From positions 186,001-250,000 of the forward strand of contig PLCN01000019.1 of assembly GCA_003134785.1 (NCBI GenBank): a stretch of DNA of 64,000 bases. Reading direction: 5' to 3'. The number at the start of each line of letters is the position of its first letter. The first letter of the stretch is position 1. Under the pieces are notes generated by a model. The model was given only the letters and a program-made list of their open reading frames with translations, was not told the DNA's origin and ran no database searches. Positions 25,839 through 47,478 of this stretch are shown in pieces. The translations under genes were made by a program, and so were the position numbers. This DNA comes from Spartobacteria bacterium (GTDB lineage: Bacteria > Verrucomicrobiota > Verrucomicrobiia > Chthoniobacterales > UBA10450).

Positions 25839-25860
25839 AAGCGGCCGCTGCTGTCCCAAT

Positions 25861-25888
25861 CCGCGTTTCATCCGTGTCTATTTGTGGC
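25861..25888. repeat. Family F half-element
   Basis: A single arm, CGTTTCATCCGTGTC then TATTTGTGGC, related to the inverted repeats flanking the GxxExxY gene (44041 and 44473) and to the empty pair at 46218. No opposite arm is visible nearby. It lies just upstream of the DciA-like gene. Confidence 0.65.
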
Positions 25889-42032: not shown

Positions 42033-44033
42033 ATGTCCCGCGAATACACGCTCCAGCGCGCCCCGCACGCGACCGCGATCAACATTGATTACGCGTCGGA
42101 GCTGAACGAGCAGCAGCTTGCGGCGGTGACGGCTTCGCCCGGGCCGCTGCTGGTGATCGCCGGGGCGGGCAGCGGGAAGACGCGCACCTTGACTTATCGC
42201 GTGGCGTATTTGCTCGAGAACGGCATCGATCCGCGGAATATTCTGCTGCTCACTTTTACGAACAAGGCCGCCCGGCAGATGGTCGAGCGCGTAGCTAATC
42301 TCTTGCCGGTGGATTCAAGCGGGTTGTGGGGCGGTACCTTTCACTCGATCGGAAATCGGATGCTGCGCCGGCATGGGAGTGCCCTGGGGTATTCGAGCGG
42401 ATTCAGCATCATGGACCGCGAAGATCAAAAAGATCTCATCAACACGGTCGTGGCGGCTGCCGGGATCAATCCAAAAGAGATGCGATTCCCGAAAGGCGAT
42501 GTCCTCGCGGAGATTTTTAGTTTTGTCATCAACACGGAGACGCCGATCGATGCGTTGCTCGCGGAAAAGTTTCCGTATTTCCTGCCCCTGCTCGAGCAGA
42601 TCAAGGACGTGCACGCGCGCTACGAAAAAAAGAAGAAGTCCACGAACTCGATGGACTTCGACGATCTGCTCGAGAAAACGCTCCGGATGTTGAAAGAGCA
42701 CGAAGAGATCGCGGCCTTTTACCGGCGTCAGTTCCAATTCATTTTGGTCGATGAATATCAGGACACGAACAAGATCCAGGCTGACTTCATCGACACGCTC
42801 GCCTCGGAGCATCGCAACGTGATGGTGGTGGGCGACGACGCGCAATCGATCTATTCGTGGCGCGGCGCGAATTTCAAAAACATTCTGGCCTTTCCGCAGC
42901 GCTATCCGGACGCGCAGGTCTTCAAGATCGAGATGAATTATCGGAGCGTGCCGGATATTCTCCGCGTGGCGAATGCCGCCATCGCCGCGAACGTGCAGCA
43001 ATTTCGCAAGCAACTGAGCGCCACGCGACCTACGAATTCAGTCAAGCCGGGCGTCGTGGGACTGAACGACGGCAGCGAGCAGGCGCAATTCGTGGCCCAA
43101 AGGATTTTGGAACTGCGCGACGAAGGCGTGGACCTGAACGAGATCGCGGTTTTGTATCGGGCGCATTACCACGCGATCGAATTACAGCTCGAACTTTCGC
43201 GGCGTGGAATTCCCTACGTGATCACGAGCGGCGTTCGGTTCTTCGAGCAGGCGCATGTGAAAGACGTGACGGCATTCATCCGGTTCATCGCGAATCCGCG
43301 AGATGAAGTTGCGTTCAAACGGATGGTAAAATTGCTGCCCGGGATCGGGGGAAAAAACGCGGACAATCTTTGGCGCGCGTGGGAAGGCAAGTTGAACGAG
43401 CATGGAGACATCATCTCGTGGAGCGAGCGACTCCTGGCGATGGCCGTCGGCGCGAAATCGAAGAAATCGTGGGAGCAGCTCGCGCACACGCTCGATGAAA
43501 TTGCGCCGGGCGGACAGCCGAACCCGCCGTCGGAAATGATCACGTCGATCGTGGAAGCGGTTTACGACGACTACGCGAAAGCGAATTTCACCAACTACGA
43601 GCTGCGCCGGGAAGATCTGAACCAGCTCGCGGCTTTCGCGCGCCAGTTCAAGGATGTGCACGAATTTCTTTCCCAGCTGGCGCTGATCAGCAATATCGAT
43701 GCGGAGCCGGCCTTGGATCAAAACGCGGACAATGAAGCGGTCAATCTGTCATCGGTGCATCAGGCGAAGGGACTCGAGTATCACACAGTCTTCGTGATCT
43801 GGCTGACCGACGGAATGTTCCCGAGCGCGCGCTCACTCGAAACGCGCGATGCGATCGAAGAAGAACGCCGGTTGTTCTATGTCGCGATCACGCGCGCGCG
43901 CGACGAGCTTTATCTAACGTATCCGCACATGCGCCTGAATGCGGGTTACGGCGACATGTTCCAGCGGCCTTCGCGTTTCCTCAAAGAGATTCCGACGCAA
44001 CTGGTTGAGGACTGGCAGGTCCGGCGTGGTTGA
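42033..44033 (+). CDS. UvrD/PcrA-type DNA helicase
   Basis: A 666-residue superfamily 1A helicase, a 3'-5' DNA translocase used in repair, plasmid replication or fork restart. Motifs in order: Q-motif region LNEQQLAAV, Walker A GAGSGKTRTLTYRVA, motif Ia TFTNKAARQM, Walker B VDEYQDTN, motif III GDDAQSIYSWRGA, motif IV MNYRSVPDIL, motif V VHQAKGLEYHTVF and motif VI VAITRARDELYL. The length fits PcrA/UvrD/Rep rather than RecB. The partner cannot be told from context. The GxxExxY cassette begins eight bases after the stop codon. Confidence 0.93.
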   Translation: MSREYTLQRAPHATAINIDYASELNEQQLAAVTASPGPLLVIAGAGSGKTRTLTYRVAYLLENGIDPRNILLLTFTNKAARQMVERVANLLPVDSSGLWGGTFHSIGNRMLRRHGSALGYSSGFSIMDREDQKDLINTVVAAAGINPKEMRFPKGDVLAEIFSFVINTETPIDALLAEKFPYFLPLLEQIKDVHARYEKKKKSTNSMDFDDLLEKTLRMLKEHEEIAAFYRRQFQFILVDEYQDTNKIQADFIDTLASEHRNVMVVGDDAQSIYSWRGANFKNILAFPQRYPDAQVFKIEMNYRSVPDILRVANAAIAANVQQFRKQLSATRPTNSVKPGVVGLNDGSEQAQFVAQRILELRDEGVDLNEIAVLYRAHYHAIELQLELSRRGIPYVITSGVRFFEQAHVKDVTAFIRFIANPRDEVAFKRMVKLLPGIGGKNADNLWRAWEGKLNEHGDIISWSERLLAMAVGAKSKKSWEQLAHTLDEIAPGGQPNPPSEMITSIVEAVYDDYAKANFTNYELRREDLNQLAAFARQFKDVHEFLSQLALISNIDAEPALDQNADNEAVNLSSVHQAKGLEYHTVFVIWLTDGMFPSARSLETRDAIEEERRLFYVAITRARDELYLTYPHMRLNAGYGDMFQRPSRFLKEIPTQLVEDWQVRRG

Positions 44034-44040
44034 TTTTTTG

Positions 44041-44502
44041 GCCACGGATTGACACGGATGAAACACGGATAGGGAGATGTTGGAAATCGACGACGAACAT
44101 CCGAGCAAGTTGCTCCACCGCGATATTACCGAACGGATTATCGGAGGCGCATTCGAGGTGCACGGCGAACTTGGATATGGATTTCTCGAACGTGTTTATG
44201 AGCGGGCACTGCAAGTGGAGTTAATCCGACGCGGGTCCGCTGTGGAAATCGAAAAGCGCGTGCAGGTCCGTTACAAGGATGTCGTAGTCGGCGATTATGA
44301 TTCTGATTTGATTGTCGATGGGTGCGTGCTCGTCGAGTTGAAAGTCAATCCTCAGTATGATCGCCGCGATGAGGCGCAGCTCCTTAATGTGTTGAAGGCA
44401 ACTGGGATCAAGGTCGGGCTTCTCGTCAATTTCGGGCGGACAAAAGTCGAGTACAAGCGCCTCGTCTTTTAAATCCGTGTTTCATCCGTGTTCATCCGTG
44501 GC
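44041..44502. mobile_element. Inverted-repeat-bounded GxxExxY cassette (462 bp)
   Basis: Two 30-bp arms, 44041-44070 (GCCACGGATTGACACGGATG then AAACACGGAT) and 44473-44502, are inverted complements at 28 of 30 positions. The GxxExxY gene fits between them with six bases to spare on the left and its stop touching the right arm. No target-site duplication is evident. An empty pair of similar arms at 46218-46296 and a half arm at 25861 show that the arms occur without the gene. Mobility is inferred from this layout. Confidence 0.65.
44077..44472 (+). CDS. GxxExxY protein (PD-(D/E)XK-like)
   Basis: A 131-residue member of the GxxExxY family, named for the motif seen here as GFLERVY (near residue 35). 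The later block DSDLIVDGCVLVELKVN carries the Asp and Glu-x-Lys pattern of a PD-(D/E)XK nuclease fold, and DEAQLLNVLKATGIKVGLLVNFG completes the family signature (shown in two parts: DEAQLLNVLK and GIKVGLLVNFG). The family's biological role is unknown. The gene is sealed between near-identical inverted repeats that reach its start and stop, which argues that gene and repeats move as one. Confidence 0.85.
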   Translation: MLEIDDEHPSKLLHRDITERIIGGAFEVHGELGYGFLERVYERALQVELIRRGSAVEIEKRVQVRYKDVVVGDYDSDLIVDGCVLVELKVNPQYDRRDEAQLLNVLKATGIKVGLLVNFGRTKVEYKRLVF

Positions 44503-44517
44503 TGAACTTTCCCCTGC

Positions 44518-46218
44518 ATGAATTTGTCGCCCGAGAAGAAAATCGCGGGAGTGCTGGCGCCGCTTTTCGCCTTGCGGACGGAGACAGATCTGGGCGTCGG
44601 CGATCTGGAGGCGTTGCGGCAGTTCATCGATTGGGCGGCGGCGATAGGGTTCAAGATCGTCCAGCTCCTGCCCATCAATGAAATGGGAGGCGACCATAGT
44701 CCGTACAACGCGATCAGTGCGGTGGCGTTGGAGCCGACCACGTTGCATCTCGCGCCCGGATCGCCGGTGGATCTCTCGCAAGAGGACTATGATGAGGTCA
44801 TCGCGCAAAACGATCTCGAGAAGTTGCGGAAAGGGCCGGTTAAGCACGATCGCGTTCGCAGTTTGAAAATCGATCTGCTGAAAAAATCCTTCGCAAATTT
44901 TTCGCGACGGGCCGACGAGGACGGCGCCTACACAACCGCGTTTGATGCTTTCTGCGAAACGGAAGCAGCGTGGCTGGTGGATTACGCGTTCTTCCGCGCT
45001 CTCATGGGAGAAAATGGCAACAGGGAAACCTGGGACCAATGGCGCGAGGAACATCGCACGGCGGATTCGGCGCGGGATTGGCTGGCGGCGCAATCTCCCG
45101 AGAAGCAGGCCTGGTTTGATGAACGTGCCAGATTCTATCGTTACGTGCAGTGGATCGCTCACTTACAATGGACGGCGATCAAATCGTACGCCGAGGAGCG
45201 CGGCGTTGGGCTGATGGGCGACATTCCGTTTGGGGTCAATTACTACAGCGCGGATGTTTATTCGCGCCGGGATGAATTCGCTTTGGATTGGTCCGGGGGT
45301 GCGCCGCCCGAGCCGTATTTCAAGGACGACGAGTTCACCCAAAAGTGGGGGCAGAACTGGGGAATTCCGCTTTATCGCTGGGACGTGATGCGAACGCGAG
45401 AGCTCGCCTGGTGGCGGCAACGAGTCCGCGGCGTGCGAAAGATTTTCCACGTCTTCCGGATCGATCACGTACTCGGCTTTTACCGGATCTACGCGTTCCC
45501 CTGGCGACCGGTGCTCAATCCGGAATTTCTCGCGCTCTCTTGGGACGAAATGCGTGAACGAACCGGCGGGGCGATTCCGCAATTCTATCCACGGGATGAT
45601 GCCACGTGGGAAAACTGCGAAGCGAATCGCCGCGAAGGCGAAGATTACTTGCGAGCCGTGCTGGAGGAGTCGGGCGAGACACGGGTGGTCGGTGAAGATC
45701 TCGGCACGGTGCCGGACTACGTGCGGCCGAGCTTGCATTCGTTAGGCGCGGCTGGATTCAAAATTCCTCAATGGGAAGTGAAACACGGGCGCGTGACGCG
45801 CGGCGAAGATTATGAGCACTTGTCGGTGACCACTTACGCGACGCACGATCACAAACCGGTCCGCGCCATGTGGGACGAGGCCCAGGATAAGACAGCGGCG
45901 ACGCAGGATCAGGCGCGGGAGGATCTGCGGAAGATCGCCGAGTTTGCCGGGATCGAGCCGCGCGAAGGACTCGATTATTTGCGCGATTTCTATCCAGCGA
46001 TCATGAGCGCCCTGTTCAAAAGCAATGCCTGGATTGCAGTAGTCATGATCACCGATCTGCTCGGACGCAAGGATCGGTTTAACGTTCCGGGCACGGCGTC
46101 AAATTCGAACTGGAGCCGGCGAATGCAAAAGACGGTGGCGGGTTTGGACGCGAGCCCTGCGATCCGAAAGCGCCTCGCGGTCATTCGTGAACTTCTGGAG
46201 AAGACGCGGAGAATCTAG
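44518..46218 (+). CDS. malQ: 4-alpha-glucanotransferase (amylomaltase, GH77)
   Basis: A 566-residue GH77 enzyme that moves alpha-1,4-glucan segments between maltooligosaccharides in glycogen or maltose metabolism. The N-terminal LLPINEMGGDHSPYNAIS is typical. The catalytic residues are in FRIDHVLGFYRIY (Asp nucleophile), VVGEDLGTVP (Glu acid/base) and YATHDHKPVRAMW (Asp stabiliser). It is a bacterial-type short MalQ without extra N-terminal carbohydrate domains. The start lies 15 bp after the right arm of the GxxExxY cassette; the stop codon TAG overlaps the first base of another family F arm. Confidence 0.93.
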   Translation: MNLSPEKKIAGVLAPLFALRTETDLGVGDLEALRQFIDWAAAIGFKIVQLLPINEMGGDHSPYNAISAVALEPTTLHLAPGSPVDLSQEDYDEVIAQNDLEKLRKGPVKHDRVRSLKIDLLKKSFANFSRRADEDGAYTTAFDAFCETEAAWLVDYAFFRALMGENGNRETWDQWREEHRTADSARDWLAAQSPEKQAWFDERARFYRYVQWIAHLQWTAIKSYAEERGVGLMGDIPFGVNYYSADVYSRRDEFALDWSGGAPPEPYFKDDEFTQKWGQNWGIPLYRWDVMRTRELAWWRQRVRGVRKIFHVFRIDHVLGFYRIYAFPWRPVLNPEFLALSWDEMRERTGGAIPQFYPRDDATWENCEANRREGEDYLRAVLEESGETRVVGEDLGTVPDYVRPSLHSLGAAGFKIPQWEVKHGRVTRGEDYEHLSVTTYATHDHKPVRAMWDEAQDKTAATQDQAREDLRKIAEFAGIEPREGLDYLRDFYPAIMSALFKSNAWIAVVMITDLLGRKDRFNVPGTASNSNWSRRMQKTVAGLDASPAIRKRLAVIRELLEKTRRI

Positions 46219-46296
46219 CCACGGATGAACACGGATTTTCACGGACAAAAGAGGGGTCTTTTCAAAATCCGTGTTTCATCCGTGTTCATCTGTGGC
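46218..46296. repeat. Family F inverted repeat without gene
   Basis: The left arm GCCACGGATGAACACGGAT (46218-46236) faces the right arm ATCCGTGTTTCATCCGTG then TTCATCTGTGGC (46267-46296), with a 30-bp spacer. The arms match those around the GxxExxY gene. It separates malQ from mdh and could also form a hairpin terminator. Confidence 0.8.
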
Positions 46297-46306
46297 TAAA
46301 TAAATT

Positions 46307-47290
46307 ATGAACTCACCCATTAAAGTCGCGATCACTGGGGCTGCCGGGCAGATTGGTTATGCGCTCGTTTTTCGCGTGGCGTCAGGCGCGATGTTTGGTC
46401 TGGACCAGCCGGTCGCGTTGCACTTGATCGAAATCCCAGCCGGCTTCGAAGCGCTCAAGGGGGTTGTCATGGAATTGGATGATTGCGCTTTCCCGCTGCT
46501 GAAAAATGTCGTCGCCACGACCGATCTCGATGAAGGGTTTCGGGATGTGAATTGGGCGCTGCTCGTGGGGAGCGTCCCGCGCAAGGCCGGGATGGAGCGG
46601 AAGGATTTGCTCGGGATCAACGGCAAGATCTTCATCGGTCAGGGACAGGCGATCGAGAAGAATGCCGCGAGGGATGTCTGCATTCTCGTGATCGGAAATC
46701 CGTGCAACACCAATTGTTTGATCGCGATGAATAATGCGAAATCGATTCCGCGGGACCGCTGGTTTGCCATGACGCGGCTGGATGAAAATCGGGCGAAGGC
46801 GCAGCTCGCGCAGAAAGCCGGCGTGGATGTCACCGAGGTGACCAACATGACCATCTGGGGGAACCACTCGGCGACGCAGTATCCCGATTCCTACAACGCG
46901 AAAATCAAAGACCACTCCGCCGCGGAAGTGATCAGCGATGAGTCGTGGCTGAAGGAGACGTTTATTCCGGCGGTGCAACAACGCGGCGCAGCGATCATCA
47001 AAGCGCGCGGTTCTTCCTCCGCGGGGTCGGCCGCGAATGCGATTGTGGATACGGTGCGATCGCTCACCACCGATACGGCGGAAGGCGATTGGCATAGCGT
47101 CGCGGTTTGCTCGGATGGCAGCTACGGCATCGAGGAAGGATTGATCTGTTCGTTTCCGGTGCGCAGGCGCGGCGGGAAATGGGAGATCGTGCAGGATGTA
47201 CCGTTGAATGAATTCGGCCGGGCGAAGACCGATGCATCGGTTGCGGAGTTGAAGGAGGAGAAGGCGCTGGTGGGTGAGCTAATCAGTTAA
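46307..47290 (+). CDS. mdh: Malate dehydrogenase
   Basis: A 327-residue NAD-dependent malate dehydrogenase of the cytosolic-type group, catalysing malate to oxaloacetate in the TCA cycle. The cofactor motif [17 protein letters not shown] starts at residue 10. The substrate-binding and catalytic sites are recognisable: [16 protein letters not shown] (loop Arg), [28 protein letters not shown] and the catalytic His in [11 protein letters not shown]. It follows a family F hairpin. The downstream gap has a family A repeat, then purC on the opposite strand. Confidence 0.95.
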
Positions 47291-47313
47291 GCAATCGCGC
47301 GGAAAAAAGCGGT

Positions 47314-47466
47314 GTCATCCCGAGCCGCGCAGACGGCGAGGGACCTCACGATGCTCAGGCGCTATCGCGTTACGGACGGCGTGTTCCTCGGATGACGCCG
47401 TAATGTTTTTCGAACGGCGGCACTACGGGTGCGAGGTCCCTCGCCGTCGGCGCGGCTCGGGATGAC
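47314..47466. repeat. Family A palindromic repeat, copy 5
   Basis: The left arm is GTCATCCCGAGC with GCAGACGGCGAGGGACCTCA, and the right arm is GAGGTCCCTCGCCGTCGGCG ending CTCGGGATGAC. It fills the space between the convergent mdh and purC genes. The core differs from the other copies. Confidence 0.85.
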
Positions 47467-47478
47467 AGCAAAGACGCG

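Follow-up and report, generated by a model that had tools for sequence, protein, structure and literature searches.

The GxxExxY genes of bacteria characteristically lie between a pair of inverted repeats, here termed arms. When all loci analysed are combined, 167 of 200 have flanking inverted arms, and this arrangement is a hallmark of the family. The element on which the analysis is based is a GxxExxY gene and its arms at positions 44041–44502 of a 64,000-nucleotide stretch of Spartobacteria bacterium DNA (GenBank assembly GCA_003134785.1, contig PLCN01000019.1, positions 186,001 to 250,000), the whole of which is referred to as the window. It appears fairly probable that GxxExxY genes and their arms constitute a two-part mobile repeat system. 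The system would resemble that of REP-associated tyrosine transposases (RAYTs) and REPINs, the doublets of repetitive extragenic palindromes (REPs), with a different enzyme. This reading follows from the family-wide association of gene and arms, an arm motif that follows the protein type, a matching dispersal of gene-less arms, arm pairs that are present or absent at orthologous sites, the conservation of catalytic residues, and purifying selection in the measurable gene pairs.

The window unit is 462 bp in length. Its left arm (44041–44070, plus strand) has three tandem CACGGAT units with a period of 10–11, and a similar arm is found in the orthologues of relatives. The right arm (44473–44502, minus strand), detected by repeat search, is an inverted copy that abuts the stop codon. 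The two 30-nt arms are 402 nt apart and complementary at 28 of 30 positions (93%). The gene between them (44077–44472, plus strand) encodes a protein of 131 amino acids; the ATG at 44077 is six bases (44071–44076) past the left arm and the TAA (44470–44472) immediately precedes the right arm. The original prediction, which described the gene as sealed between near-identical arms, gave the arm length and identity, gap, stop-codon contact and unit length correctly. It also reported facing arms with no gene between them at 46218–46296, which are present, and a solitary arm at 25861. The latter is a lone right arm (25859–25888, minus strand), two bases away from the reported start, with its left partner not found nearby.

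GxxExxY genes are present in 48 of the 58 genomes searched, which comprise the window's own genome and its relatives, with 175 matches in total. Of these, 119 loci were examined, taken mostly from the stronger matches listed. Arms (score ≥14, with the 3′ end of the open reading frame also scanned) were found at 58 of 62 loci, 60 from relatives and two from the own genome, compared with 4.6% of 744 pairs in a swapped-flank control. A scan that leaves out the 3′ end of the reading frame misses right arms that lie inside it, and gave 46 of 62 at score ≥13. A further 57 loci included 49 with arms, which brings the relatives' sets together to 107 of 119. In a cross-phylum set of 81 loci, 80 from a genome-collection scan and one from a viral contig, arms flank the gene at 60, and the control gave 2.7% of 810 pairs. 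Record titles in this set name Proteobacteria, Acidobacteria, Planctomycetes, Chloroflexi, Bacteroidetes, Cyanobacteria, Spirochaetes, Nitrospirae, Chlorobi and others. These loci were kept by the motif H[RS]xLGPG[FL]LE, and for this reason the family is unevenly sampled and the conservation of H29–E38 in alignment A3 is by construction. Pseudo-genes shifted by 650 bp within the same loci have arms in 0 of 121 cases. The malQ gene, taken as another control, has arms at 4 of 27 loci, and in each case these are type-A arms that belong to adjacent units. Thus the expectation that such arms flank GxxExxY genes elsewhere is borne out in all three sets (58/62, 49/57 and 60/81).

The arms are built of tandem units of 9–11 bp. 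The best self-match at shifts of 7–12 averages 0.62 over 158 arms versus 0.42 in shuffled arms, and 669 units are recognised in arms by a rough template of the unit, versus 303 in shuffled arms. Units read toward the gene at 136 of 167 loci and away from it at 17; the other 14 are ties. About half of the away-reading loci, as judged by inspection, have arms like ACAGGAT or ACGGAAT in a different register, and a few are true reversals.

Some loci display unusual arrangements. At several of six loci (L119, L130, L133, L139, L146 and L163) the right arm is inside the reading frame and encodes a C-terminal tail, e.g. NPVNPGNPV; these six units are apparently situated between gyrB and gyrA, to judge from the flanking peptides. 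A single reading frame of ∼310 amino acids with two GxxExxY domains is found at L159 (G050:C66) and at G057:C40. L285 (G028:C339) has two adjacent GxxExxY genes, both with similar CGCGGAT arms, and L258, an IMG/VR contig classed as viral, has a GxxExxY gene between inverted arms.

The arm motif tracks the protein, and neither the genome nor the site. The comparison of arms with proteins covers 165 of the 200 loci, those with arms of score ≥14 and an intact protein. An orthologous place was defined by a tblastx match of flanks, a definition under which short contigs may hide orthology. At non-orthologous places, arms are shared by 12 of 12 pairs at ≥80% protein identity, by 81% of 36 pairs at 70–80%, by 27% of 193 pairs at 60–70% and by ≤1% under 50%. 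Of 117 pairs of paralogues within the same genome, 0.9% have arms in common. With arms permuted within genomes (500 permutations, 3623 pairs) the observed rho of 0.186 compares with a mean of 0.018 and a maximum of 0.113. Similar flanks are found in 341 pairs; 64 of these are below 50% in protein identity and share no arms, and therefore different GxxExxY types occupy the same spacers. Arms and gene thus move together as one unit, although recognition of one by the other is not thereby shown.

Arms are also dispersed without a gene. The own genome (4.39 Mb in 25 contigs) has 38 matches to the pattern TCCGTGTNNATCCGTGGC with ≤1 mismatch and none to the reversed pattern, and the arms thus exceed chance. 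A tally over arm loci gives at least 18 gene-less pairs and at least five lone arms besides the one pair that encloses the gene; these are lower bounds, some weaker single matches having been left out. Sixteen of the 18 pairs are 60–97 bp in length and the other two are 179 and 232 bp. The pair at 46218–46296, the only one folded, forms one long hairpin of −26.2 kcal/mol (z −8.5). The three single arms of the window, when folded separately, give 0 to −0.3 kcal/mol and have no hairpin of their own. The second GxxExxY gene of this genome (L002) has different arms, in which CGCGAAT units replace CACGGAT.

The gene-less arms correspond in type to the resident gene. Type-A arms are found mainly in the own family, f1 (37 genomes). 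Extra type-A arms number 1–36 in the 14 f1 genomes with a type-A gene and 0–17 in the other 23 (Mann-Whitney p 2.5e-4), where the gene may be intact, shortened or decayed and one genome (G030) was classed from coordinates alone. A reciprocal test was made in ten genomes reached via ten named loci. Arms of the Geothrix type number 58, 34 and 29 in the three genomes with that gene type and 0 in the other seven. Flavobacterium-type arms occur 30, 27, 47 and 43 times in the four genomes that have the corresponding gene and not once in the remaining six, and reversed patterns gave 0 throughout. In Geothrix fermentans DSM 14018 (the L203 genome), eight elements of ∼240 bp (L347–L354) with the same arms and interior are found at eight places, and eleven short pairs have the same arms as the gene unit; these 19 were chosen by the spacing of arm matches. 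The conserved interior of L347–L354 is itself largely palindromic. A type-C arm pattern had 0–10 matches per genome and a loose visual relation to type-C genes, from which no support is drawn. A strict pair pattern was dropped as too strict, since it matched 3 of 58 genomes and missed the own genome altogether.

Occupied and empty versions of arm-pair sites are observed in related genomes. For 12 arm-pair sites, the two flanks were joined and used to search eight congeneric genomes, and 20 matches were compared. All six congeners read at the site of one 97-bp pair of the own genome (C8:53270) lack that pair, and the two genes there are nearly adjacent; one pair of G001 is absent from G000, G003 and G005. 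The remaining sites are less clean because relatives carry different spacer sequence. Flanks of seven of 12 arm sites in G001 match those of an own-genome arm site and five have no match; in G003 five of eight match, L314 and L317 weakly, and three do not.

The gene unit of the window has a different history. It lies between a UvrD-like helicase gene (42033–44033) and malQ, encoding 4-alpha-glucanotransferase (44518–46218), and the gene-less pair at 46218–46296 lies in the spacer between malQ and mdh, a lactate/malate dehydrogenase gene (46307–47290). Thirty malQ loci were assembled, of which 26 have readable upstream spacers, the own genome included, and four (G022, G032, G033 and G048) are unjudgeable. 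The unit is present, shortened or decayed at the uvrD–malQ site in 11 of the 26 (G000, G001, G002, in which the end of uvrD was not recognised, G009, G010, G011, G017, G019, G025, G027 and G035, a list that includes the own genome). It is absent in 15, where the spacer has other palindromic repeats, small genes or nothing. Whole type-A gene units are also found outside uvrD–malQ (L127 in G004 and L260 in G029). G001, G029 and G017 have the gene-less pair at the same malQ–mdh site, and other genomes retain remnants of its right arm there. Since both occupy the same sites in relatives, gene unit and gene-less pair are old and inherited: the window unit is an old, intact member of its family and the window's apparently empty pair is ancestral. 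The original prediction had read the full, empty and solitary arms of the window as what mobilisation would leave behind. As a recent excision or mobilisation series this is ruled out by the relatives, in which the unit (11 of 26 genomes, the own genome included) and the pair are in place. The comparison of orthologous loci it proposed shows an old gene unit on the one hand and an absence of the 97-bp pair in six of six congeners on the other.

Unit-less uvrD–malQ spacers (L089, L092–L095, L101, L103, L105, L107–L109 and L117) often have other palindromic repeats, of the types AATGACGAA, CATTCCGAGCGAAG, CACAAAGGACACGAAG and CCACAGATTTCGCAGATT. By eye, some of these resemble arm types of other GxxExxY genes and others have no known gene.

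The protein models as a Cas4-like PD-(D/E)XK nuclease, and its nuclease activity is predicted. It matches TIGR04256 (GxxExxY) with 124 bits (cut-off 35) and PF13366 (PDDEXK_3) with 117.4 bits (cut-off 22). The AlphaFold2 model has a pLDDT (predicted local distance difference test) of 91.1 and a pTM (predicted template-modelling score) of 0.83. Its best solved fold is SSO0001 (4ic1), a Cas4 protein, with a VIA Z of 9.7 and 3.1 Å over 98 residues. The next VIA rows are lambda-type exonucleases, Hjc and restriction enzymes at Z 6–8, a common range, with some unrelated rows interspersed. Foldseek also places 4ic1 first (E 1.8e-3, probability 1.00). The GxxExxY motif is formed by G35, E38 and Y41 (44179–44199, plus strand); in alignment A1 (28 sequences) G35 and Y41 are invariant and E38 is present in ≥90%. 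D77 and E87-x-K89 (44305–44343, plus strand) are presumably the catalytic residues, as expected for the PD-(D/E)XK family. D77 and K89 are invariant in both A1 and A3 (72 sequences). Position 87 is E in ≥90% of A3 and in <90% of A1, where some sequences have D. Q101 and Y105 are present in ≥90% of A3, and the conserved set that includes them resembles that of RecB/Cas4-type nucleases. The assignment to PD-(D/E)XK proteins made by the original prediction is thus upheld by family models, fold and residues alike. Where measurable, purifying selection acts on the GxxExxY genes: dN/dS, the ratio of nonsynonymous to synonymous substitution rates, is 0.02–0.16 in six of 12 pairs, the other six being excluded with saturated dS. 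A sequence search of solved structures gave a best E of 1.1 with the window protein and 0.38 with A1 (endodeoxyribonuclease I, 1m0d), values that lend no support. The anti-phage defence models of PADLOC gave no match at E≤1 for two proteins, and PHROGs matched only at E>0.2.

At the mechanistic level, an arm is a row of two to four tandem units of 9–11 bp, each roughly C-R-C-N-R-A-K followed by a 2–3 nt spacer. Such a row is a plausible protein-binding array, with sites one helical turn apart. Two inverted arms bound either the nuclease gene, as a full unit, or a short variable spacer, as a gene-less pair of mostly 60–100 bp that may form one long hairpin. The Cas4-like protein may recognise its own arm type by binding the tandem units, and may then cut or process the arm-bounded DNA or its hairpin. 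Cutting could lead to arm pairs being copied to new sites, and the gene itself would mostly stay at its inherited site. RAYT genes mostly remain at one inherited place.

Several observations weigh against the two-part mobile system. That the protein binds, cuts and moves the arms is what we infer. The proposal that GxxExxY mobilises repeats with these arms accordingly stands in part: arm association, dispersal and occupied and empty alleles favour it, and cutting and moving by the protein are the inferred portion. At 33 of 200 loci the arms are under threshold. G003, G021 and G031 carry 17, 12 and 17 type-A arms, respectively, with no type-A gene among the matches listed, and the link between arm and gene is thus not strict. 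The reciprocal test compares clades, and clade-confined arms of other cause would look alike. Common descent of the unit alone would likewise make arms and protein co-vary. A target-site footprint, which was anticipated, is not evident: none of 12 pairs has a target-site duplication of 4–9 bp and at best one has 3 bp (25 offsets). A 2-bp direct repeat is present in four of the 12 at one offset, and the test can judge only duplications ≥3 bp. No solved structure reached E≤0.001 in Foldseek. Searches in which the window protein was the sole query found relatives in eight of 72,556 plasmid records and in none of 50,697 phage records; in viral contigs there were none with this query and one with alignment A2. 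Covariation analysis places protein columns T18, F26, R39, N104 and A108 (window 44128–44400) highest against arm-unit bases 5 and 7. The top z is 8.2 with 47 representatives versus up to 6.3 in five joint label shuffles, but 7.2 versus 7.7 with 31 representatives and 4.6 versus 22.4 with 17. The five columns are only a lead to recognition residues and do not rise above label shuffles in the stricter sets.

Other explanations can be weighed on the same data. GxxExxY may be a host nuclease with another job, for example the processing of palindrome hairpins, to which the arms are a substrate that is removed or repaired and not spread. The long hairpin of the gene-less pair, the resemblance of the fold to Holliday junction resolvases and Cas4/lambda-type exonucleases, the vertical retention of genes at some sites and the low dN/dS where measurable are all in keeping with such a role. 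This is nevertheless unlikely, as it leaves unexplained why, at 167 of 200 loci, the gene itself is enclosed by arms, and why arms are numerous in genomes with the matching gene and missing from those with other types. The arms might instead be terminators or regulatory sites useful to the host, with pairs kept for that purpose and the gene merely autoregulated by them. The strong hairpin of the gene-less pair would suit a terminator, and by inspection many Geothrix pairs are bounded by A- and T-runs as bidirectional terminators are. However, the 12 type-A pairs inspected have no consistent adjacent T-run, a regulator site needs no inverted copy past the stop codon, and the arm motif tracks the nuclease type and does not occur where the resident genes are of other types; we consider this explanation quite improbable.

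It is also conceivable that another transposase, e.g. a Y1/RAYT enzyme, moves the arm-bounded DNA and that the GxxExxY gene is a passenger. The own genome does have eight Y1_Tnp matches, seven of them above the cut-off, and at one Y1_Tnp locus (L340) a lone type-A arm is situated ∼1 kb from the gene. Yet type-A arms are at the ends of none of the eight Y1_Tnp genes, the search being limited to Y1_Tnp among transposase families, and a Y1 transposase as the driver of type-A arms is rejected on this count. Loci L339, L340, L342 and L344 have inverted repeats of other sequence. In addition, a passenger is unlikely to carry arms of its own type across many groups, and the passenger explanation seems very doubtful.

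The two-part reading of gene and arms has its closest parallel in REPIN/RAYT. In that system, the enzyme gene is flanked by cognate repeats and gene-less inverted hairpin doublets are dispersed; several repeat families in a species correspond to repeat-specific enzymes, and enzyme and repeats co-evolve (PMC3116915, PMC8266576, PMC3733652). GxxExxY genes are likewise flanked by a cognate repeat (167/200 loci), with dispersed gene-less inverted doublets (at least 18 pairs in the own genome, hairpin z −8.5 for the one folded). RAYT is an HUH Y1 transposase, whereas the GxxExxY enzyme is PD-(D/E)XK nuclease-like and matched only PF13366 and TIGR04256. A REP is itself a palindrome, whereas the GxxExxY arm is a row of direct 9–11 bp units that does not fold alone. 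Since there is no HUH transposase match and single arms are not hairpins, the GxxExxY system is not a member of REPIN/RAYT. TIRtrons and TIRYTs are also similar in having a small gene within terminal inverted repeats and moderately abundant repeat families, but TIRYTs are HUH tyrosine transposases (PMC3733652).

The protein is like Cas4 and RecB-like nucleases in its fold and in its conserved D77, (D/E)-x-K, Q101 and Y105. Unlike Cas4, the window protein has 131 amino acids and a single cysteine, too few for the cysteines of an iron-sulphur cluster, and its neighbours are the uvrD-like, malQ and mdh genes, with no cas genes. Miniature inverted-repeat transposable elements (MITEs) are short multi-copy elements with terminal inverted repeats and presence/absence sites, and the GxxExxY arm pairs are similar to them. 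They differ in having no evident target-site duplication of ≥3 bp and a candidate enzyme that is neither a DDE nor an HUH transposase. The original prediction spoke of a homing- or MITE-like system; nothing points to homing, and the REPIN/RAYT-like arrangement fits better.

There is about an even chance that mobile repeats of a class found across bacteria, convergent with RAYT/REPIN, have GxxExxY proteins as their enzymes. These PD-(D/E)XK nucleases would read the tandem 9–11 bp units of their own inverted arms and drive the copying of mostly gene-less arm-bounded DNA to new sites, with arm specificity diversified by type. In the literature searched, GxxExxY appears in two papers and PF13366 in one, each time in passing, and the arm strings nowhere, an earlier remark in a database or subscription journal being possible; among the matches listed from the RAYT, REPIN and nuclease literature there is no PD-(D/E)XK case of this kind. 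If the reading is correct, a widespread family with no known function would gain a first role, and a class of palindromic repeats found in many phyla would be explained. The REPIN-like way of life would then be served by a second enzyme type, unrelated to the first. The system is directly testable, since the predicted DNA target is written on both sides of each protein's gene. Studies of DNA recognition would also profit from a nuclease family whose targets are legible in the genome.

Two further observations concern other repeats of the genome. Y1_Tnp (RAYT-like) genes with unrelated repeats coexist with GxxExxY units in the own genome. The window also has a 35-nt inverted repeat, TGTCATCCCGAGCCGCGCAGACGGCGAGGGACCTC, at 47313–47467, with copies 97% complementary and 85 nt apart. 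It looks like a dispersed repeat of a separate family, and similar sequence is found in the malQ–mdh spacers of some relatives.

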